Positions 6,318-24,260 of a stretch of 28,617 bases of DNA are shown here, piece by piece; within the stretch, counting starts at the first letter, position 1; the number at the start of each line of letters is the position of its first letter. The DNA is taken from positions 1-28,617 of IMG/VR virus record IMGVR_UViG_3300009169_000075; one strand, given 5' to 3'. The translations under genes were made by a program, and so were the position numbers. This stretch comes from a virus. Under the pieces are notes generated by a model, which saw only the letters and a program-made list of their open reading frames with translations, did not search any database and was not told the origin of the DNA.

Positions 6318-8569
6318 GCAACATGTTCTTGAACATCGTCAGCACCTTCAAGGGCGATGGTATCAAGCAAGCCACAAGTCAATTAGGTGCTTTTAGTGGC
6401 AAGATGGGTGGCCTTGGCTCAGTTCTTGGCAAGGTGGGTACGGCCCTAGCCGCTTTCGGCGTTACAGCTAAAGCTATCTCTTTTACGCGAGAGTCAATTA
6501 CAGCCGCTCGTGACTTAGAGCGAAACCTCTATGGTGTTGAAACTATTTTTGGCAGTCTAGCCCCGAAGATGGTTCAGTTCACCAAAGACGCTGAGGAAAT
6601 GGGTCTTAGCCAATCTAAGGCTGCCAAGGCAACAACATTTATCGGTTCGGTTCTAAAACAATCTGGCTTTGCCATGAGCGATGTTGCAGTAGAGACACAA
6701 AAGCTTGTTGGGCTAGCTACTGACCTTTCTATCCTCTATGGCTACGATGTCCAAGAAGCCTTGCTTGGTATGACTGCTTTGTTCCGAGGTGAGTACGACC
6801 CGATTGAGAAGTTCGGTGTCGCTATGAAGCAAAACGAGATTAACTCGGAGCTTGCTGCCAGAGGACTAAACAATCTTGAGGGTGCTGCCAGAAGAAACGC
6901 CGAGCAGGTTATCCGAATGGAACTCTTGTATGAAAGAGCTGGCGATGCGATAGGAACATTTGCTGGTCAAAGCGGAACTCTATTTACCGAGCAGAAAAAA
7001 CTCGGTGCTACTTTTGAAAACTTCCAAGCAAGCCTAGGTGAAGCTGTTATACCAGCAGTTACACAGCTCAATGTACTTTTCAGAGAGCTTCTAAGCGACA
7101 TAGGCCCAGGCATGCAGTCAGCCTTTGCTTTCTTGGCAGAAGTTTTGTCGGGCGTTGTTGGGCTAATACAACAGGCGATGGACCCAACCAGCGACCTTGG
7201 GGAAAGCGTTGCAGCGTTAGGGATTCAGTTTGAGTCGTTGTTTAAAACAATCTTTGGTCAAGAGGCAACAATAGGCACTGTCTTTGAAATTGCTGGTGTA
7301 GCCCTAGGTATGTTTGTAGACCTTATGCACGACTTACTAAGAATTGTTCAAAATACAATAATTGGTTTTCAGGTTATGGGCGAACAGATTGGACTATTGC
7401 TTAGTGGCAAGTTTGCAGAATGGGCTGCTTTTGATGCCGCAGGAGAAATCCGTAAGCGTATTGACCTAAAAGACACTATTCAAGCCAACGAACTTGCTGT
7501 GAAGCAATACATTGCTGAATGGGACAAGGCACGAGAGCTAAAACTTAGTGGACACATTGGCTCAATCAACCTAACAGCAGACGCTTGGGAAAGAGCCAAC
7601 AGAGCAGCATCGCTTTACTCAAGACCAAAGGGTTTGCCAGCCTCAGCAGACGCTATCGAAAGATGGCTAGCTGTTGTTGCTCCACAAACAGAAGCCGTTG
7701 CAACATCTATTGATTCAATCGTAAGCGCTGCCACAGGCGGTTCAACAGAGGGAACAACGACACCAGCAGCGGAAACGGGTCCAACTGGATTACAAGCCTG
7801 GCTAGCTTCGGCTGCCGCAGACGCAGAAAAAGCTAAAAAGAGAATAGCTCTTATAGGTGCTGGTTTATCTGAAGCCGTTGCCGATTCCATTTTGTCTTCA
7901 ACAGACCCAATCAACGCGGCAAACGAAGCCCTTACGCTGATTGCCAGTGGTGGTACAGCGGCAATTAGAAAGCTTACTCGTGCGTTTAATAGCTCTGCTG
8001 AAGGTCAGCGTCTAGCAGCGGAAAGAGCTGAAGAAGCAAGAAGAAAAGAAAAAGAAACTCTTGAAAAACGAAAAGCAGCACTAGAAGCTTTCCAGCAATC
8101 AGTCAAAGATGTATTTGCTGGCATAAAAGATTCAATTATGTCTGCCTTTACCTTGCCTGACCTTGGAAACTCGGTCAACTCAATTACTAAGAACATACAA
8201 AGACTTCTAGCCAAGACTAGGGCTTTCGCTGCAAACATTAGCCAACTTAGTGCGCTTGGTCTAAACTCCAACCTTTTACAGCAGGTAATTCAGGCGGGAC
8301 CAGTCGCGGGTTCACAGCTAGCCGCTGCCCTTGTTGCTGGTGGAAGTAGCTTTATTGGTCAAATTAACACTTCTTTTGGGGAATTTGGTAATCTAGCTTC
8401 TACTATTGCAGGAGTCGGCACACAAGCCGCTTTTGCTAACCCTCAGACAGTCAACAATTACAGTGTTGAAGTAACTGGCGGTTTGGCTACTAGCGCAGAT
8501 GTGGGTCAAGCAGTTGTCAATGCAATTAGAAACTATGAACGCCAATCGGGTTCAGGTTGGAGGGCTTAA
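6314..8569 (+). CDS. Tape measure protein
   Basis: A 751-residue protein and the longest gene in the window. It sets tail length and is threaded through the tube. The N-terminal third shows the TP901/TMP pattern: ITAARDLERNLYGVETIFGS (about 74-93), then FTKDAEEMGLSQSKAAKATTF and DLSILYGYDVQEALLGMTALFRGE. Hydrophobic helices follow in the middle (for example VFEIAGVALGMFVDLMHDLL), with a Glu/Lys/Arg coiled coil near 570-600 (AERAEEARRKEKETLEKRKAALEAF). Using the common rule of about 0.15 nm per residue, a tail of about 110 nm is implied. ATG 6314 overlaps the previous stop. No lysozyme or peptidase domain is apparent. Confidence 0.9.
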   Translation: MSNMFLNIVSTFKGDGIKQATSQLGAFSGKMGGLGSVLGKVGTALAAFGVTAKAISFTRESITAARDLERNLYGVETIFGSLAPKMVQFTKDAEEMGLSQSKAAKATTFIGSVLKQSGFAMSDVAVETQKLVGLATDLSILYGYDVQEALLGMTALFRGEYDPIEKFGVAMKQNEINSELAARGLNNLEGAARRNAEQVIRMELLYERAGDAIGTFAGQSGTLFTEQKKLGATFENFQASLGEAVIPAVTQLNVLFRELLSDIGPGMQSAFAFLAEVLSGVVGLIQQAMDPTSDLGESVAALGIQFESLFKTIFGQEATIGTVFEIAGVALGMFVDLMHDLLRIVQNTIIGFQVMGEQIGLLLSGKFAEWAAFDAAGEIRKRIDLKDTIQANELAVKQYIAEWDKARELKLSGHIGSINLTADAWERANRAASLYSRPKGLPASADAIERWLAVVAPQTEAVATSIDSIVSAATGGSTEGTTTPAAETGPTGLQAWLASAAADAEKAKKRIALIGAGLSEAVADSILSSTDPINAANEALTLIASGGTAAIRKLTRAFNSSAEGQRLAAERAEEARRKEKETLEKRKAALEAFQQSVKDVFAGIKDSIMSAFTLPDLGNSVNSITKNIQRLLAKTRAFAANISQLSALGLNSNLLQQVIQAGPVAGSQLAAALVAGGSSFIGQINTSFGEFGNLASTIAGVGTQAAFANPQTVNNYSVEVTGGLATSADVGQAVVNAIRNYERQSGSGWRA

Positions 8570-14097: not shown

Positions 14098-14343
14098 ATG
14101 TGGTTAGACATTGCTCGCAGAACTCTAGCAGTTATTATTTTGAAGGTCACAGGTATCTTTGTCGGTGGGGCTGTAATCGGTCTTGAGGTTATTCAGGCCG
14201 TTGCTATGGCCGCCTTTGCTGGCATTATTGATGTATCTCAGGAGCTATCTCGCTCTTACCTTGCAGACGGCAAGATTGATGTTGACGAAATCAACAAGAG
14301 CTTCGGTAAAATTGCTGACAACTCAGGACCTAAGAAGCCCTAA
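14098..14343 (+). CDS. Small membrane protein of lysis module
   Basis: An 81-residue protein starting at ATG 14098 with GGAAGGA (14084-14090) upstream. The first part is hydrophobic (TLAVIILKVTGIFVGGAVIG, LEVIQAVAMAAFAGIID), followed by a soluble end (ELSRSYLADGKIDVDEINKSFGKIA) with a D-G-K-I-D-V-D-E-I pattern that looks like half an EF-hand, although only a single loop is present. Proteins of this shape accompany actinophage lysis genes. Its last 14 bases overlap the end of the convergent whiB-like gene. It may be a holin partner; the function is not established. Confidence 0.6.
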   Translation: MWLDIARRTLAVIILKVTGIFVGGAVIGLEVIQAVAMAAFAGIIDVSQELSRSYLADGKIDVDEINKSFGKIADNSGPKKP

Positions 14344-14602
14344 GTTTCTGCCGTTCCTCATAGGTAGTTCCACCCCAAATGCCATGCATCCCTGCTGACA
14401 GGGCATAGTCAAAGCACCTTAGCCTGACTGGGCAATCAGCACATACTTGCTTGGCTACCTCAATCATGGCTTTGCGGGATTCTGCGTCATGCTCGTCTTC
14501 GGGAAAAAACACATCTGGAAGCTCGGCACACTGTACGCCGTCATTGTTTCTTATTGCTTCTTGCAACTCAATGTATTTGCGTTCAATCTGGCGTAATGTC
14601 AT
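14330..14602 (-). CDS. WhiB-family transcription factor
   Basis: A 90-residue protein and the only gene read on the minus strand. It has the four iron-sulfur cysteines of WhiB proteins: C25, C54, C57 and C63 (VQC, then VCADCPVRLRC), followed by the G-I-W-G-G turn (74-78) and a basic end TTYEERQKLRAS. WhiB proteins bind sigma factor region 4 with a 4Fe-4S cluster and redirect transcription; phage copies can reshape host expression. The frame is open further upstream, but ATG 14602 begins at the conserved part and lies six bases after a TATGGT element, suggesting a leaderless transcript. The family is restricted to actinobacteria and their phages, which is the best host clue here. Confidence 0.92.
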   Translation of the reverse strand: MTLRQIERKYIELQEAIRNNDGVQCAELPDVFFPEDEHDAESRKAMIEVAKQVCADCPVRLRCFDYALSAGMHGIWGGTTYEERQKLRAS

Positions 14603-14608
14603 ACCTAG

Positions 14609-14638
14609 ACCATAGGGTATAACTACGACAAATAGCAA
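14609..14638 (-). promoter_or_regulatory. Promoter of whiB-like gene, leaderless
   Basis: Read on the minus strand, TTGCTA (14638-14633) lies 18 bases before TATGGT (14614-14609), and ATG follows after six bases. No ribosome site precedes the ATG. On the + strand the same stretch holds TATAACT (14618-14624), so the region may carry divergent promoters for whiB and the exonuclease operon. Confidence 0.55.
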
Positions 14639-14639
14639 A

Positions 14640-14664
14640 GCCACGCCGAGAGAGTTAGCGTGGC
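14640..14664 (+). promoter_or_regulatory. Perfect 7-bp hairpin in whiB/exonuclease intergenic region
   Basis: GCCACGC (14640-14646) pairs perfectly with GCGTGGC (14658-14664) around an 11-base loop. On the + strand it would lie in the 5' leader of the exonuclease gene; no T-run follows there. It could be a protein-binding inverted repeat or leader structure. Confidence 0.4.
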
Positions 14665-14692
14665 CTTGCGACAAGGAAAAGAGAGGGAAACC

Positions 14693-16564: not shown

Positions 16565-16777
16565 GTGATAGCCGAATCCTGCTCCTGTGGGGCAAAAATA
16601 AAGACTGATGACGCTCAGGCAATCAAGCTTGTGCGCGAGTGGCGGCGTAAGCACATTTGTACCGACAACACCGACATAACCGACACGCCCACATCAGGAT
16701 TAGCCGACACACAAATAGCAATCGGTTTCCAACCTGCCGAAATGCCAGCTAAAGAATACGACCCCTGGGATGACTAA
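16565..16777 (+). CDS. Small zinc-finger-like protein
   Basis: A 70-residue protein from GTG 16565. The N-terminal half has C6 and C8 (ESCSCGAKI), then EWRRKHIC with His and Cys about 22 residues on, a plausible single zinc site. The second half is a Thr/Asp-rich tail (TDNTDITDTPTSGLADTQ) encoded by tandem ACCGACA repeats, ending AKEYDPWDD. The stop overlaps the next start. The repeat that encodes the tail reappears in the non-coding region near 24.0 kb. Function unknown; a DNA-associated accessory protein is a guess based on its operon. Confidence 0.55.
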   Translation: MIAESCSCGAKIKTDDAQAIKLVREWRRKHICTDNTDITDTPTSGLADTQIAIGFQPAEMPAKEYDPWDD

Positions 16778-17928: not shown

Positions 17929-19157
17929 CTCAGTTTGAGCAATCGGTAATCGGTGCAATCCTGCTGACTAACGGCAAGGCGCTAGAGAACCTAACGCTGA
18001 CACCAGCAGACTTTGATGACCTGCAAAACGAGCGCATCTACAAAACCATTCTGGAGATGAGGTCTAACCGCCAGCCGATAGATGTAATGACAGTCGGTGC
18101 AGCACTGCCAAAGCTATCGAGCTATCTGCACGATGTAGTCACAGCCACACCAACAGCAGCTTCGGTTAGCTTTTACGCAAACAAGGTAATCGAAGAAGCG
18201 ACACGCCGAAGGCTTGCTCAGGCTGGAACAATGATTCACAGCAAGGCTCAGCACGAGGACTTGGCTTCGGTCTTTGACTCAGCTAAAAAAGAGATTGACA
18301 ACCTAATTGACAGAAACTCAGCAGTCAAGCCAACCTATGTTGCTGACGAGATGTTGCCATACATGGATGAGTTAGACAAGCCTAAGACCTATCCAGAAAG
18401 CCCTTGGCCATCGCTAAACGAAATCATCGCTGGCTTTAGACCAGGTGCGCTTTACATTGTCGGAGCAAGACCTGGTGTTGGTAAGACTATTGTTGGTTTG
18501 CAGATTGCTTGGGAACTATCTAAGACTGGCCCTGTATCTTTCCACAGCCTTGAGATGGGTCGTAACGAGCTTTACAACAGAATCATTGCTAGCGAGGCTG
18601 AGGTCTACATCGGCAACATTGAGAAGGGAACGCTTAAGGAACATGACTGGCTAAAGATTGCTAAAGTCCGAACAAAGATTCAGTCGCACCAGCTAGCGAT
18701 ACACGACAAGTCTGGACAAAACCTTTTACAGATTCGTGCGCTCGCAAACAGCGTGAAAGGAACAGGCGACCTAAAGGCTATTGTTGTTGACTACCTTGGA
18801 TTGATTCAGGACACCGAGCGAGGTCGCAAGAGATACGAAATGATTACAGACATCAGCATCGGTCTAAAAAACTTAGCAAGAGACCTAAATGTCCCTGTCA
18901 TCGCATTGGCCCAGCTAAACCGAGGACCAGAGCAACGCAAAGACTCCGAGCCTGACATGGCTGACCTTAGAGACTCAGGTGGAATCGAGCAGGATGCAGA
19001 CGCTGTTATCTTGCTTCACAGAGTCTCGATTGCCGAAGACCAGTTCGATTGGCAAAAGAGCTGGATGGTGATGAAGGTCGCGAAGAACAGGCATGGCGCA
19101 CTCGGTCAAGTAGGACTAAAGTTTGAGGGCCACCTGTCCAGAGTTGTAGAGGGCTAA
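17925..19157 (+). CDS. dnaB: Replicative DNA helicase, DnaB-type
   Basis: A 410-residue helicase that would unwind DNA at the phage fork. The N-terminal domain starts TQFEQSVIGAILLTNGKALE and has the DnaB pattern FDDLQNERIYKTILEMRSN. The RecA-like core carries Walker A GARPGVGKT (180-188), the SLEMG motif (208-212), Walker B IVVDYLGL (286-293), PVIALAQLNR (324-333) and DLRDSGGIEQDAD (348-360), the H4-type DNA-binding loop. It is slightly shorter than bacterial DnaB. The start overlaps the initiator stop (ATGA), so loader and helicase are translationally coupled. No primase domain or primase gene is visible in the window, so host DnaG is presumably recruited. Confidence 0.95.
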   Translation: MTQFEQSVIGAILLTNGKALENLTLTPADFDDLQNERIYKTILEMRSNRQPIDVMTVGAALPKLSSYLHDVVTATPTAASVSFYANKVIEEATRRRLAQAGTMIHSKAQHEDLASVFDSAKKEIDNLIDRNSAVKPTYVADEMLPYMDELDKPKTYPESPWPSLNEIIAGFRPGALYIVGARPGVGKTIVGLQIAWELSKTGPVSFHSLEMGRNELYNRIIASEAEVYIGNIEKGTLKEHDWLKIAKVRTKIQSHQLAIHDKSGQNLLQIRALANSVKGTGDLKAIVVDYLGLIQDTERGRKRYEMITDISIGLKNLARDLNVPVIALAQLNRGPEQRKDSEPDMADLRDSGGIEQDADAVILLHRVSIAEDQFDWQKSWMVMKVAKNRHGALGQVGLKFEGHLSRVVEG

Positions 19158-20348: not shown

Positions 20349-20434
20349 CGCGACACGCCGAAAAAGGCAAAAAAACAAAATTCTTGACTAAAATCCTGAA
20401 AAACTGCTATTCTGTGATTACAGCCGAAAGGTTG
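20349..20434 (+). promoter_or_regulatory. Strong promoter module 1: operator-like 14-mer, -35, extended -10, 5' hairpin
   Basis: CGCGACACGCCGAA (20349-20362) is followed by an A-rich tract, -35 TTGACT (20384-20389), an 18-base spacer and extended -10 TGC-TATTCT (20405-20413). Seven bases later, at the expected start of the RNA, is hairpin CAGCC-GAAA-GGTTG (20421-20434). The same elements with the same spacings occur at 24176-24260. Confidence 0.85.
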
Positions 20435-20453
20435 CTAAAGAAGGGATAAAAGA

Positions 20454-20624
20454 ATGACAGGTATCAAGATAGTGCTTTACTTTTTAGCTCTAACGCTCGT
20501 GCTACTTATTAGCTGGGCGATTCAAGACATCCACCTTGGCTGGGGATACACAGTAGGCATGTTGGGTATTCTTGCAGCTTACTTTGTCGCAGTCAACGCA
20601 ATAGCAAAGAAGACAAACAAATGA
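20454..20624 (+). CDS. Small two-span membrane protein, first gene of promoter-1 operon
   Basis: A 56-residue protein with ATG 20454 and ribosome site GAAGGGA (20440-20446). The chain is MTGIKIVLYFLALTLVLLIS, then WAIQDIHLGWGYTVGMLGIL and AAYFVAVNAIAKKTNK. It has two hydrophobic helices and a basic end, so it should insert in the host membrane with both ends inside. As the first gene behind a strong promoter it is probably made early and in quantity. No family is recognised. It is translationally coupled to the next gene through ATGA. Confidence 0.65.
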   Translation: MTGIKIVLYFLALTLVLLISWAIQDIHLGWGYTVGMLGILAAYFVAVNAIAKKTNK

Positions 20625-20803
20625 CAGAAACAGAACTAGCAGAACAAATTATCGAAGAAGCTCAGCGTTGGACTCAAAAGCAGTTCACACTGACACCAGG
20701 AGTGCCTGGTACAGATTCAACCTCAGAGCATGACGCAAGAGCAAGAATCGAACTAATCGAACACATCAAGCAAACCTATAAAGAAATGAGAGAAATTGCC
20801 TAA
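20621..20803 (+). CDS. Small acidic helical protein
   Basis: A 60-residue protein, coupled to the preceding gene by ATGA and overlapping the next by 8 bases. It reads MTETELAEQIIEEAQRWTQK, QFTLTPGVPGTDSTSEHDAR and ARIELIEHIKQTYKEMREIA: two charged helices joined by a Pro/Gly loop. No Cys, His cluster or enzymatic motif is present. It is not recognised. Coupling and the operon context support a real gene; a host-interaction role is only a guess. Confidence 0.6.
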   Translation: MTETELAEQIIEEAQRWTQKQFTLTPGVPGTDSTSEHDARARIELIEHIKQTYKEMREIA

Positions 20804-21038
20804 CTACAATCCAGAAGTAATCGAGTTCGCAGTAAAGGACTTCCAGCCTCACCAGTACAACTTCAGCGTGGCTAAGTCAGACGGAATCTACATGGGCCGT
20901 ATGTTGATGAAGAACGAGATACTTGCGCTCATCAAAGCTGCATACCCAACACCAACCAAAGCCATCGCAAGAATCATTGAGGTAGTAGAAGACATTGAAA
21001 TCTATGTTGACCCTCAGTACAACGACTCGGTTCGGTAA
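20796..21038 (+). CDS. Hypothetical protein, alpha/beta
   Basis: An 80-residue protein starting at TTG 20796 behind GAGAGAAA. Its start (PNYNPEVIEFAVKDFQPHQY, NFSVAKSDGIYMGRMLMKNE) is mixed; the second half is helical (EILALIKAAYPTPTKAIARI, IEVVEDIEIYVDPQYN). The phrase MLMKNEILALIK resembles a pattern repeated in the neighbour at 21038 (a helix followed by I-E-V-x-x-D-I), so the small genes here may be distant relatives. Function unknown. It overlaps both neighbours, as expected in this tightly packed operon. Confidence 0.6.
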   Translation: MPNYNPEVIEFAVKDFQPHQYNFSVAKSDGIYMGRMLMKNEILALIKAAYPTPTKAIARIIEVVEDIEIYVDPQYNDSVR

Positions 21039-21241
21039 TGGCACTAACCATTTACACAGAGGGCTTTAGGGCTGGACTTAGATACCAGCGAGAGAGCGTG
21101 TTGGACTTTATTAGAGTCCACGCCGAGCAGGGTGTCGAGATAACAGTTCAAGACATTGCTGATGAAATCAACTACCAATACAAAATGGACATGGAAGTAA
21201 AGCTGACAGAGATGAGGGGACAATGGGGCCAAAAGAGCTAG
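21038..21241 (+). CDS. Hypothetical protein, FxxGxRYQRExV type
   Basis: A 67-residue protein joined to the preceding gene by TAATG. It reads MALTIYTEGFRAGLRYQRES, VLDFIRVHAEQGVEITVQDI and ADEINYQYKMDMEVKLTEMR. The pattern G-F-x-x-G-x-x-Y-x-R-E with a following helix is seen in short phage proteins and recurs in this window at 21363 (WYSKGFEEGSAEMKDYLAEQ). It may be one of a small paralogous set. The ADEINYQY segment could be a short recognition helix. No function is assigned. Confidence 0.6.
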   Translation: MALTIYTEGFRAGLRYQRESVLDFIRVHAEQGVEITVQDIADEINYQYKMDMEVKLTEMRGQWGQKS

Positions 21242-21366
21242 ACATCAAGCTACAAGAGTTTGATGCTCGATTGACAATGATTAAGAGAGAACTAAACGAG
21301 CTAGTAAAAACAGCTAAAGACATTGAGTTTCGAGCTAAGGCAATCTTGGGTGAGGTAGACAAATGA
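21223..21366 (+). CDS. Small coiled-coil protein
   Basis: A 47-residue protein with ATG 21223 and ribosome site GAGGGGA (21214-21220). It reads MGPKELDIKLQEFDARLTMI, KRELNELVKTAKDIEFRAKA and ILGEVDK, an almost continuous heptad-like helix. It overlaps the end of the previous gene by 19 bases and the next start by ATGA, and it fills what would otherwise be a 121-base gap. Function unknown; coiled-coil pairing with another small protein of the operon is possible. Confidence 0.6.
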   Translation: MGPKELDIKLQEFDARLTMIKRELNELVKTAKDIEFRAKAILGEVDK

Positions 21367-21608
21367 TTAGCTGGAGAAAATGGATTCAGTATCAAGACAA
21401 CCGAACAGCTAGAAAAATGCTAAAAACTATTCCTTTATGGTATTCAAAGGGTTTTGAAGAAGGCTCAGCTGAAATGAAAGATTACTTAGCCGAACAAATA
21501 ATCCACTCAATCAACCAAGATGCAGTCCTAAGAATGACGGCAGATGTTGACACACTAGAGCGTGTTGTCGAAATCATTGAGGCGGTGAGGGACATTGGCA
21601 AAGCATAG
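21363..21608 (+). CDS. Hypothetical protein, GFxxG type
   Basis: An 81-residue protein coupled to the preceding gene (ATGA). It begins MISWRKWIQYQDNRTARKML and contains LWYSKGFEEGSAEMKDYLAE, QIIHSINQDAVLRMTADVDT and LERVVEIIEAVRDIGKA. The W-Y-x-K-G-F-E-E-G helix is similar in style to the protein at 21038, and the V-V-E-I-I-E-A-V-R-D-I end recalls I-E-V-V-E-D-I at 20796. Together these suggest old duplications among the small genes. No function is assigned. The next small gene starts in its last codons. Confidence 0.6.
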   Translation: MISWRKWIQYQDNRTARKMLKTIPLWYSKGFEEGSAEMKDYLAEQIIHSINQDAVLRMTADVDTLERVVEIIEAVRDIGKA

Positions 21609-21717
21609 AGCAAGCAGAGTCCCTATCAACTGGCGTATCTTGCGAGTTCACTGGGCATACAAGACACTAAGAATCAGAAGAATGATTTGGACACTGATTT
21701 ACAAAACAACCAAATAA
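21595..21717 (+). CDS. Small basic protein
   Basis: A 40-residue, strongly basic protein from TTG 21595, with ribosome site GTGAGGG six bases upstream. It reads MAKHRASRVPINWRILRVHW and AYKTLRIRRMIWTLIYKTTK: an Arg/Lys/Trp-rich amphipathic chain that could bind nucleic acid or a membrane. It overlaps the preceding gene by 14 bases and leaves 46 bases before the next. Being so short it may be a chance frame, but the ribosome site, the coupling and the otherwise empty 155-base gap argue that it is real. Confidence 0.5.
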   Translation: MAKHRASRVPINWRILRVHWAYKTLRIRRMIWTLIYKTTK

Positions 21718-21763
21718 AGCTATTTGGCTCTAAGCTTGATAGAGAGAACCGAAAGGGGCAGCA

Positions 21764-21985
21764 ATGCTAGAGGGAATGGAACCACAAAAAAGAAAAGCGC
21801 CATGCAAAGTGAGGACAGTCTTAGAGTCATTAGACGCAAAAGACCAGGTTGTTCTTGTAAACGCAGTATCCAATGAGTCATGGGGAGCTAACGCACTAGC
21901 TAGAGAGCTAACTGCTAGAGGAATAACAATTAGCGAGAGGCCAATAATGGCTCATCGCAGGAAAGCGTGTAGCTGTGCTAGATAA
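21764..21985 (+). CDS. Small putative DNA-binding protein
   Basis: A 73-residue protein with ATG 21764 and ribosome site AAAGGGG. The sequence KAPCKVRTVLESLDAKDQVV, LVNAVSNESWGANALARELT and ARGITISERPIMAHRRKACS has the shape of a helix-turn-helix: WGANALARELTARGITISER would be helix, turn and recognition helix, followed by a basic end with Cys. Comparable short proteins precede metallophosphoesterase genes in other actinophages. It overlaps the next gene by 11 bases. DNA binding is inferred from the pattern only. Confidence 0.6.
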   Translation: MLEGMEPQKRKAPCKVRTVLESLDAKDQVVLVNAVSNESWGANALARELTARGITISERPIMAHRRKACSCAR

Positions 21986-23123
21986 CTTAGAACCCGCACC
22001 AAAGGTGACACCGCCTAAAGACTGGCGACCTGCTGTTCAGTTTGACGGCACAACTGGTGAGGCAACTACTCCACCAACCACAGGCAACCAGCCTAACTTT
22101 GACGAGTTTCTAATCGAGCAAGGCTTTGACCCTGACAAGATTGAGATTTACGGCCCAATCAGAACTAGCCGTTGGCAACAGCGTGAGGGTGGCGATTGGT
22201 TAGTTAGCTGGCGCTTCAACTTCAGAACACGCTCTGAAGTCGAGATTGACTTACCAACTCTTTACTCACAAGCTCGCAAAAGCATCAAGATTGCAAAGCC
22301 AAAAGAACAGACAGAAAAAGCTGTTGTTGTTTGCTGGTCAGACACCCAAACAGGTAAGGCTGGCGACATCAGAGGTGGCACACCTGAGCTGATTGAGCGT
22401 ATTGCCGAGAAGCAAGCCAAGCTTGCAGATTACTTAAAAAAAGAAAAACCAGATGTTATTTATTTTCTAAATGTTGGTGACAGCATCGAAGGCTTTGAAT
22501 CTGGTGGCAACCCTATGAGAACTAATGACCTTAGTTTGATGCAACAGGTTGACCTTGAGGCAACTTTTGAGTGGGAGACTTTGAAGCTCATGGCTAACTA
22601 CGCGCCTATTGTTGCTGCTTCGGTTGGCTCCAACCATTGTGCTTGGAGAGCTGGAAGACAGAAACTCGGTACAGCAACGGATGACTGGGGCTTACACATC
22701 CAGCGCCAGCTTGCCAGACTTGCACAGGAAACAGACTTACCAGTCAAGTTCTACGAGCCACAGCCTAACGATGAATCTTTGGCTCTAGATGTTTGGGGAG
22801 ACAACGAGATGATTCTAGGTCTAGTGCATGGACACCAAGCTAGCCGACCTGATGGGATTGTCCAATGGTGGCGTAATCAGTCACACGGCAACCAACCAGT
22901 AAAAGACGCAGACATTCTCATTCATGGCCACTTCCACCACCTAACTGTAAAAGAGTCAGGCAGAAGAAACGACCATAGCCGATGGGTTATTCAATGTCCA
23001 ACTCTTGACGCTGGCTCAAGCTGGTATCGAACAGGCATGGGTGGAGATGACAGCGACCCAGGTTTACTTGTCTTCCCGCTAACCAAGGGCGAGAACTTCC
23101 AAGGAACAGTGCATAAGCTCTAA
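21975..23123 (+). CDS. Metallophosphoesterase / SbcD-like nuclease
   Basis: A 382-residue protein of the calcineurin-type metallophosphoesterase fold. The metal-binding motifs appear in order: WSDTQTGK (121-128, D123 and probably Q125 where most have H), NVGDS (166-170), GSNH (218-221), LVHGHQ (283-288) and LIHGHFHH (315-322). The first 110 residues (EFLIEQGFDPDKIEIYGPIR, then a Trp-rich strand pair) form an extra N-terminal domain common to this phage family. It could process DNA ends during recombination, like SbcD, or hydrolyse a small phosphodiester. It starts at GTG 21975 and overlaps both neighbours. The replacement of the usual D-x-H by D-T-Q in motif I deserves checking. Confidence 0.82.
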   Translation: MLDNLEPAPKVTPPKDWRPAVQFDGTTGEATTPPTTGNQPNFDEFLIEQGFDPDKIEIYGPIRTSRWQQREGGDWLVSWRFNFRTRSEVEIDLPTLYSQARKSIKIAKPKEQTEKAVVVCWSDTQTGKAGDIRGGTPELIERIAEKQAKLADYLKKEKPDVIYFLNVGDSIEGFESGGNPMRTNDLSLMQQVDLEATFEWETLKLMANYAPIVAASVGSNHCAWRAGRQKLGTATDDWGLHIQRQLARLAQETDLPVKFYEPQPNDESLALDVWGDNEMILGLVHGHQASRPDGIVQWWRNQSHGNQPVKDADILIHGHFHHLTVKESGRRNDHSRWVIQCPTLDAGSSWYRTGMGGDDSDPGLLVFPLTKGENFQGTVHKL

Positions 23124-23305
23124 TGCCAATCTACGACTACAAGTGCAACACCTGTGACCTAAAGATGACACTCATAAGGAAAATAACCGAACCAGCGCCG
23201 ATTCCATTGTGCGCTAACTGCGTAAAAGACTTAGTTAGGGTCTATGACGCACCTGGAGTCAGCTTCAAAGGCACAGGTTGGGCTGGCAAAGAAAATAAAA
23301 AATGA
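23123..23305 (+). CDS. FmdB-like zinc-ribbon protein
   Basis: A 60-residue zinc ribbon. It begins MPIYDYKCNTCDLKMTLIRK with C8 and C11, and has a second C-x-x-C at C30 and C33 (IPLCANCVKDLVRVYDAPGV); the end SFKGTGWAGKENKK matches the closing F-K-G-x-G-W of the FmdB/putative regulatory protein family. Such proteins are small and common in actinobacteria and their phages; their role is poorly known, perhaps transcriptional. It is coupled to the preceding gene by TAATG. Confidence 0.82.
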   Translation: MPIYDYKCNTCDLKMTLIRKITEPAPIPLCANCVKDLVRVYDAPGVSFKGTGWAGKENKK

Positions 23306-23362
23306 GGGGGGGGTATGCTCAAAGCATGTCCTACAAGAAATTAAAAAAATCGGGGGGCCGCA

Positions 23363-23698
23363 ATGCCTAAAATGCCCTGCCTAGTTTGCAAAAAACTAAC
23401 AGACGGAAACTCAAGATGTGATGCCCACCAGAAGATGTGGGATGACGAAGCCGATGCCAAACGGCGAGCGCGTAAGCAAGCCACTGGCCAATACTCAGGT
23501 GACTACAAGGCAAGAGCAAGGATGGTTCGAGAGAACGCCTATGTCTGCCATCTCTGCAACGAAGGCCCAAGACTCAATGACCCTTGGCAAGCAGACCACA
23601 TCAATCCTGGCGACCCTTACAGCCCACTAGCCGCAGCTCATCGGTCATGCAACGCAAGCCGAGGCAACAAGCCACTAAAAGATTCGGTCAAAGACTAA
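23363..23698 (+). CDS. HNH endonuclease
   Basis: A 111-residue HNH nuclease. After an N-terminal zinc pair (CLVCK, then RCDAH) and a charged helix (DDEADAKRRARKQATGQY), the core reads VRENAYVCHLCNEGPR (C62, C65), QADHINPGDPYSPLA (H79) and AAHRSCNASRGNKPL (H93, C96, N97), matching the C-x-x-C...DH...H-x-x-C-N-x-x-R-G pattern. HNH proteins next to terminase genes aid packaging, but no terminase is near in this window, so a free nuclease or homing function remains possible. The end of the gene runs into the GATTCGGT array; its last codons include the first repeat. A G-run (23352-23357) lies just before the start. Confidence 0.88.
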   Translation: MPKMPCLVCKKLTDGNSRCDAHQKMWDDEADAKRRARKQATGQYSGDYKARARMVRENAYVCHLCNEGPRLNDPWQADHINPGDPYSPLAAAHRSCNASRGNKPLKDSVKD

Positions 23699-23813
23699 GA
23701 CTCAAGACTCGGTTCGGATTCGGTTCAACTGACACAGAGCGAGAGCTTCCGATTCGGTCAAGATTCGGTTGAAAAACTTAAAGATTCGGTTCAAAAATTC
23801 GGTCAGATTCGGT
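23681..23813 (+). repeat. GATTCGGT repeat array
   Basis: Six exact copies of GATTCGGT (23681, 23717, 23751, 23762, 23783, 23806) and at least two close variants (23707, 23796) occur within 133 bases, all in the same orientation. The intervals are about 36, 34, 11, 21 and 23 bases, with the variant at 13 and 10, close to whole turns of the helix. Most copies continue with T/C-A/G-A. The array begins in the last codons of the HNH gene and is otherwise non-coding. Confidence 0.85.
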
Positions 23814-23881
23814 TGAAAATTCTGACAGACTGACCCAAAAAGGCATTAGAACACTTGTACGAAACATTTGTTCGAAAGCCT

Positions 23882-24170
23882 GAAACCCTGCCACCGATAC
23901 AGGCAACCCGAAACCCTGCCAGATTGAAGCGCCGAAACACACACCGCGACAGGGTAAGAGTAAGCCCCGCGGATACACGCACACACAAACAAACCGACAA
24001 CACCGACAACACCGACAGACCGCAACCCGCGACAGGGTAAAGACACCCGCCACAAACCCGCAACAGGCAAGCAAGGCGAAACCCTGCCAAGGGTAGCCAA
24101 AGGCAACATATAAAGAGGTGAAACCGCCCGAAACAGACCAAACACCGCAACAGGGCAAAACAGGGCAAAA
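23882..24170. repeat. CCCTG / CAGGG interspersed repeats
   Basis: GAAACCCTGCCA occurs three times (23882, 23910, 24078) and GCGACAGGGTAA twice (23946, 24029). ACCCTG and CAGGGT are complementary, so the copies could pair with each other in RNA or bind a protein in either orientation. CAGGGCAAAA occurs twice near 24151 and 24161. ACCGACAAC occurs in tandem at 23993-24017. Confidence 0.7.
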
Positions 24171-24175
24171 ACACC

Positions 24176-24260
24176 CGCGACACGCCGAAGACAAAAAAAG
24201 ACAAAAAAACTTGAAAAAAACCAAAAATTCTGCTATTCTCTAAACATAGCCAAACGGCTA
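24176..24260 (+). promoter_or_regulatory. Strong promoter module 2
   Basis: CGCGACACGCCGAA (24176-24189), -35 TTGAAA (24211-24216), a 17-base spacer, extended -10 TGC-TATTCT (24231-24239), then hairpin TAGCC-AAAC-GGCTA (24247-24260) after seven bases. The 14-mer lies 35 bases before the -35 box, exactly as in module 1. It drives the right-arm operon. Confidence 0.85.

Follow-up and report, generated by a model that had tools for sequence, protein, structure and literature searches.

Paired phage promoter modules with a putative WhiA-type site and a 5′-terminal hairpin

IMG/VR virus record IMGVR_UViG_3300009169_000075 is a linear virus DNA of 28.6 kb, analyzed here over positions 1 to 28,617 (the window), with a phage-like gene order that runs from capsid and tail genes to replication and small genes. 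Between positions 20,349 and 24,260, it carries two matched promoter modules, each combining a shared 14-mer, a promoter and a short inverted repeat ahead of a small gene. This arrangement raises the question of what recognizes the 14-mer and what the inverted repeat does once transcribed. On balance, we favor the reading that, in each module, a host WhiA-type site (the box) lies 56–60 bp upstream of the −10 element of a sigma-A promoter. The transcript would start at an A that is followed by an RNA hairpin; WhiA, probably with a phage WhiB, would control the promoter, and the hairpin would shield the mRNA.

Layout of the modules and conservation in relatives

Both modules described in the initial annotation are present, and their elements were found at the exact coordinates (Table 1). 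As had been claimed, the 14-mer lies 35 bp ahead of the −35 hexamer, start to start, the extended −10 is identical, and the hairpin begins seven bases past the −10 in both modules. The −35/−10 spacer of module 1, at 18 bp, is longer than that of module 2, at 17 bp, which shifts the distance from box to −10 by 1 bp. Hexamer pairs of comparable quality occur at chance level by themselves (22 found versus 20.8 expected), and the unusual feature is the combination of elements, not the hexamer pairs alone. Over both strands of the window, the pattern TAnnnT, six bases, A and a stem at least five pairs long matches only at 20408 and 24234, and this search for −10, A and hairpin revealed no third copy of the module. 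The exact 14-mer occurs in the window at these two sites only; a copy with one mismatch at 18197, inside a dnaB-like gene, is probably due to chance.

Table 1. Coordinates of the module elements and associated genes in the window.
Feature	Position	Strand	Remarks
Putative WhiA-type box, module 1	20349..20362	+	14-mer CGCGACACGCCGAA; conserved core CGACACGCC at 20351-20359; directly after RusA stop codon
−35 TTGACT, module 1	20384..20389	+	Degenerate in many relatives
Extended −10 TGC-TATTCT, module 1	20405..20413	+	
Predicted start A (20420) and 5′-terminal hairpin CAGCC-GAAA-GGTTG (20421-20434), module 1	20420..20434	+	
Putative WhiA-type box, module 2	24176..24189	+	14-mer CGCGACACGCCGAA; core CGACACGCC at 24178-24186
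−35 TTGAAA, module 2	24211..24216	+	
Extended −10 TGC-TATTCT, module 2	24231..24239	+	
Predicted start A (24246) and 5′-terminal hairpin TAGCC-AAAC-GGCTA (24247-24260), module 2	24246..24260	+	
First gene of module 1, 56 amino acids	20454..20624	+	Slot varying among relatives
First gene of module 2, 71 amino acids	24280..24495	+	
WhiB-family protein (PF02467)	14330..14674	−	Potential partner of the host's WhiA; no direct connection to either module seen

Relatives were gathered in two ways: by a search for the 14-mer and promoter pattern and, independently, by homology to the protein encoded at 21975-23123, which matches a phage exonuclease family; the second set is motif-free. These relatives share descent, and the counts are not independent trials. 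In the motif-free set, CGACACGCC is present in 28 of 29 distinct regions downstream of RusA in close relatives; L164 lacks it behind RusA, and for L171 the box was read in the contig that also holds L045. The conserved unit is CGACACGCC, mostly followed by GA (~11 nt), and the first two letters of the 14-mer, CG, are not conserved. The proposal that the 14-mer is a shared operator or activator site is supported, and the site can be given a name as WhiA-type, but its conserved unit spans ~11 nt rather than 14. In a more distant group, L242 and L244 have the box within the last RusA codons, ahead of the stop. The group L238, L242, L244 and L246 had been taken as box-less, which was wrong at least for these two.

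When 88 loci chosen by homology were scanned by structure only, 36 modules preceded by A-rich DNA emerged; 31 of these carry GACAC at −54 to −60 relative to the −10. The box lies 56–60 bp from the −10 at 41 of 42 phage matches, and across 23 phage records CGACACGCC occurs 24 times, versus 3 for a reversed control word. Homologues of module 2 also exist (L268 and L273). The comparison of relatives, a check set in advance, found that the box and the hairpins, with compensatory changes, both persist. An exact 14-mer scan of IMG/VR returned mostly unrelated matches, with promoter context in a handful only, a scan of genome contigs gave matches at chance level, and among phage isolates no convincing DNA relative of the promoter region turned up. 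The closest isolate match, made through the 21975-23123 protein, is phiPsal1, which infects Pontimonas. At positions 28829-28873 of phiPsal1 (L214), CGCGACACGCCG directly follows an intrinsic-terminator-like sequence, GGCCCCGCTTCGGCGGGGCTTTT, upstream of gp52-gp53. In a metagenome-assembled genome of a lake actinobacterium (L213, ~7224-7340), CGACACGCCGAA and its inverted copy GAACGGCGTGTCGG flank a palindrome resembling a LexA box, with a promoter-like sequence downstream of it.

The hairpin at the predicted 5′ end

The seventh base past the −10, where the start is expected, is an A in nearly all modules of the set in which A was not required; in the structure-only scan, A was a requirement. 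The hairpin stem begins at the base after this predicted start or one further. Predicted fold energies are −6.3 kcal/mol (z −2.2) for hairpin 1, which includes one G-U pair, and −6.1 kcal/mol (z −1.8) for hairpin 2. A motif-free stability test on the regions downstream of RusA gave a mean z of −2.0, which is moderate, and Rfam has no match within the window.

Among relatives, the two arms change together, as in CAGCC/GGTTG, TAGCC/GGCTA, TGACC/GGTCA, TGACCC/GGGTCA, TGGCTC/GAGCCA, TCAGCTC/GAGCTGG and others. Differences in stem and loop length put the leaders out of register when all were aligned with MAFFT, and pairs were therefore counted on 14 in-register hairpins. Their covariation score is 0.524 versus 0.275 in shuffles, a value reached by 0 of 500 shuffles. 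Paired cells amount to 96%, a figure biased by picking the set among hairpin-bearing sequences, so that two-sided changes are the useful measure; these occur in four of six pairs, and slid controls have none. The idea that the sequence varies while the structure is kept, pointing to selection on RNA shape, is borne out by this covariation. The element is best read as an RNA in which structure rather than sequence is conserved.

The hairpin would leave about one unpaired 5′ nucleotide and could thereby shield the mRNA from decay that depends on the 5′ end. Such protection has an actinobacterial precedent: in the mycobacterial DrrS RNA, a short 5′ stem-loop starting with A gives high stability, at least two added 5′ nucleotides destabilize the RNA, and reporter levels rose three-fold with the stem-loop (PMC5360333). 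RppH of B. subtilis requires at least two unpaired 5′ nucleotides (PMC3997798). By analogy, the phage layout, with mostly one unpaired predicted 5′ A, would fall inside the stabilizing range of DrrS. The hairpin might instead be a recognized RNA signal rather than end protection, namely an antitermination element like boxB/nut or put, or a protein-binding site. A stem of 5–6 pairs with a purine-rich loop of 4–5 nt near the operon start has the look of such a signal, and an AAGGG loop is common in one lineage. However, stem and loop letters are free to vary and differ even from copy to copy within a genome, and the position of the hairpin is fixed relative to the predicted start, which makes this alternative unlikely in our view.

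The box as a putative WhiA-type site

In the two modules and in most relatives, the conserved core holds GACACGCC, which fits GAYACRCY exactly. GAYACRCY is the WhiA-site core upstream of rpsJ operons in whiA-bearing bacteria, and its Mycoplasma version was bound by WhiA in an electrophoretic mobility shift assay (PMC11701221). GACACGCC also includes the Streptomyces WhiA motif GACAC, and in S. venezuelae footprinting has identified nrdR as a WhiA target (PMC3781837). Actinomycete rpsJ leaders often carry GACACGCC. In the rpsJ leaders of L284, L289, L292, L300 and L304, the arrangement is GACACGCCCGACC-N-GGGGGTCGG, with the WhiA core leading directly into a sequence that forms a hairpin.

The host side was compared in one actinobacterial order, possibly the freshwater Nanopelagicales, represented by 61 genomes of 1.2–2.2 Mb. 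WhiA is encoded by 61 of 61 genomes of this order, which may not be the phage's host order, and one example aligns nearly full-length with the WhiA chains of entries 8dy7 and 8dy9, both of which also contain a WhiB chain. In these genomes, GCGACACGCCGA occurs 23 times versus 7 for control words, largely upstream of recurrent genes (rpsL, DUF4193-like, hemolysin III-like and nrdR, names read by eye from the translations). At nrdR, GACACGCC is found in 30 of 32 upstream regions and the control word in 1; the GAYACRCY core points forward 31 times and backward once. The distance from box to −10 is 57–59 bp at 21 of 27 nrdR sites and 42 bp at 5, and most nrdR sites share the spacing of the phage box. 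Several nrdR loci, L346, L350 and L368 among them, have a second GACACGCC directly ahead of the start codon, beside the ribosome-binding site (e.g., AAGGGAGACACGCCGAGATG).

These likenesses suggest how the modules could work. Host WhiA would bind the box at about −68 to −60. A WhiB-family protein (PF02467) is encoded in 21 of the 23 phage records, the window included, and this phage WhiB would probably assist WhiA by contacting sigma-A region 4; a WhiB that bridges WhiA to this region has been suggested for Streptomyces (PMC6282962). The −35 is not better than shuffled sequence in 21 of the 36 structure-only modules, while the box and −10 stay, which argues for an activator-dependent promoter. 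With the −35 often weak, WhiA would more likely recruit RNA polymerase than block it.

Several observations weigh against this proposal. GACAC is short and common, and the box is missing from three relatives (L226, L227 and L241) that retain both promoter and hairpin. In phiPsal1, CGCGACACGCCG, which lies ahead of the homologous gene, lacks the same promoter spacing. In the comparison order, the upstream region of whiA itself has no box in seven of eight loci, and this order may not be that of the phage host. Repression by WhiA is also as frequent as activation (PMC3781837).

The last point bears on the sign of regulation. The box could be a WhiA site that acts as a brake, with host WhiA repressing the promoter until infection alters WhiA or phage WhiB displaces it. 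In an S. venezuelae whiA mutant, WhiA targets go up and down in similar numbers (PMC3781837), Mycoplasma WhiA represses rpsJ (PMC11701221), and the WhiB of phage TM4 acts as a dominant negative on host whiB2 (PMC8612146). Loss of the −35 in many modules where the box stays is a better fit to an activator, and the core promoter is downstream of the box, with no overlap; a brake thus seems improbable, though it deserves consideration. Less probable still is a phage- or host-encoded factor other than WhiA with a similar motif. The conserved stretch is only ~9–11 nt, and the assignment to WhiA is drawn from sequence, but the fit to the published 8-nt core is exact, and this core recurs at actinobacterial nrdR, rpsJ and rpsL with phage-like spacing. 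We regard it as very improbable that the inverted repeat is a DNA operator for a dimeric repressor. Its location over +1 is typical of operators, but G-U pairs break the DNA symmetry, loops range over 3–6 nt, and the letters differ between modules of one genome, all of which argues for RNA shape. Recent duplication, by which the likeness of the two modules would carry no functional message, was already disfavored and is hardly credible: the copies agree at 73% over the 45 nt from the box, but among relatives the box holds steady as its flanks, the −35 and the letters of the hairpin diverge, and the hairpin changes are compensatory.

Setting, significance and known systems

The first gene after the module is hypervariable, with 46 modules in relatives leading to 21 protein clusters, mostly of 53–101 amino acids. 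In L158 and L166, the promoter is common to both, and the hairpin and gene differ. This fast-changing slot suggests that the cassette serves whichever small gene is inserted behind it, presumably early in infection. The stretch 23876-24225, between the HNH gene and module 2, is strongly depleted of T and rich in CGACA and ACACCGACA repeats and holds the T-poorest part of the window (23926-24225, 3.7% T). A member of the same repeat family, ACCGACAACACCGACATAACCGACACGCC, lies at 16661-16689 within a small open reading frame and ends in a further CGACACGCC.

In wider terms, and more tentatively than for the modules themselves, an actinophage family may use a standard cassette of WhiA box at host spacing, extended −10, A start and shape-selected 5′ hairpin, driven by host WhiA and phage WhiB, for the expression of very small genes in a rapidly changing slot. 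Many actinophages encode WhiB-like proteins, with DNA targets and purpose mostly unknown, and these promoters offer defined, testable targets. A survey names TM4 as the only phage whose WhiB was studied for function in infection (PMC8612146). The modules also suggest that phages exploit WhiA, a regulator with links to genes for ribosomal components and nucleotide metabolism. They further present a 5′ mRNA hairpin whose shape is preserved throughout a natural family of phages. To our knowledge, such a hairpin is otherwise familiar from single transcripts. A search of the open-licence literature found no report of a link between phage promoters and WhiA; the parts are of known kinds, and their combination in phages did not turn up in that literature.

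SAS elements of cluster K mycobacteriophages resemble the box in being repeated, conserved elements near actinophage genes, including those of WhiB-encoding TM4. They lie at translation starts and not upstream of a −35, a contrast that compares descriptions rather than sequences. The hairpin resembles lambda boxB/nut and HK022 put in being short, with a purine-rich loop, near the start of a phage operon. Unlike them, it has no boxA in view, its stem and loop letters are not conserved, and it extends from the predicted +2.

The closest relation is to the sigma-A promoters controlled by WhiA and WhiB in Streptomyces (PMC3781837, PMC4850268; 8dy7, 8dy9) and to the rpsJ WhiA sites (PMC11701221), which have the GACAC or GAYACRCY core in common with the phage modules. 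Shared traits also include the single box orientation, as at nrdR, the spacing to the −10 of nrdR promoters in the comparison order, and an encoded WhiB-family partner. The phage modules differ in their setting and in that the partner WhiB would be phage-encoded, at a site that is putative; their predicted start is followed by a 5′ hairpin, which is missing from the host nrdR promoters (0 of 25). For this hairpin, the nearest likeness is DrrS of M. tuberculosis, with a small stem-loop about one nucleotide from the 5′ end (predicted in the phage) and a transcript starting with A (PMC5360333). Further stabilizing 5′ stem-loops are among those cited in PMC3997798, in the ompA, papA and aprE leaders. 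Unlike all of these, the phage hairpin, with its presumed stabilizing role, is a standard part of a promoter family, in which the letters change and the shape is kept.

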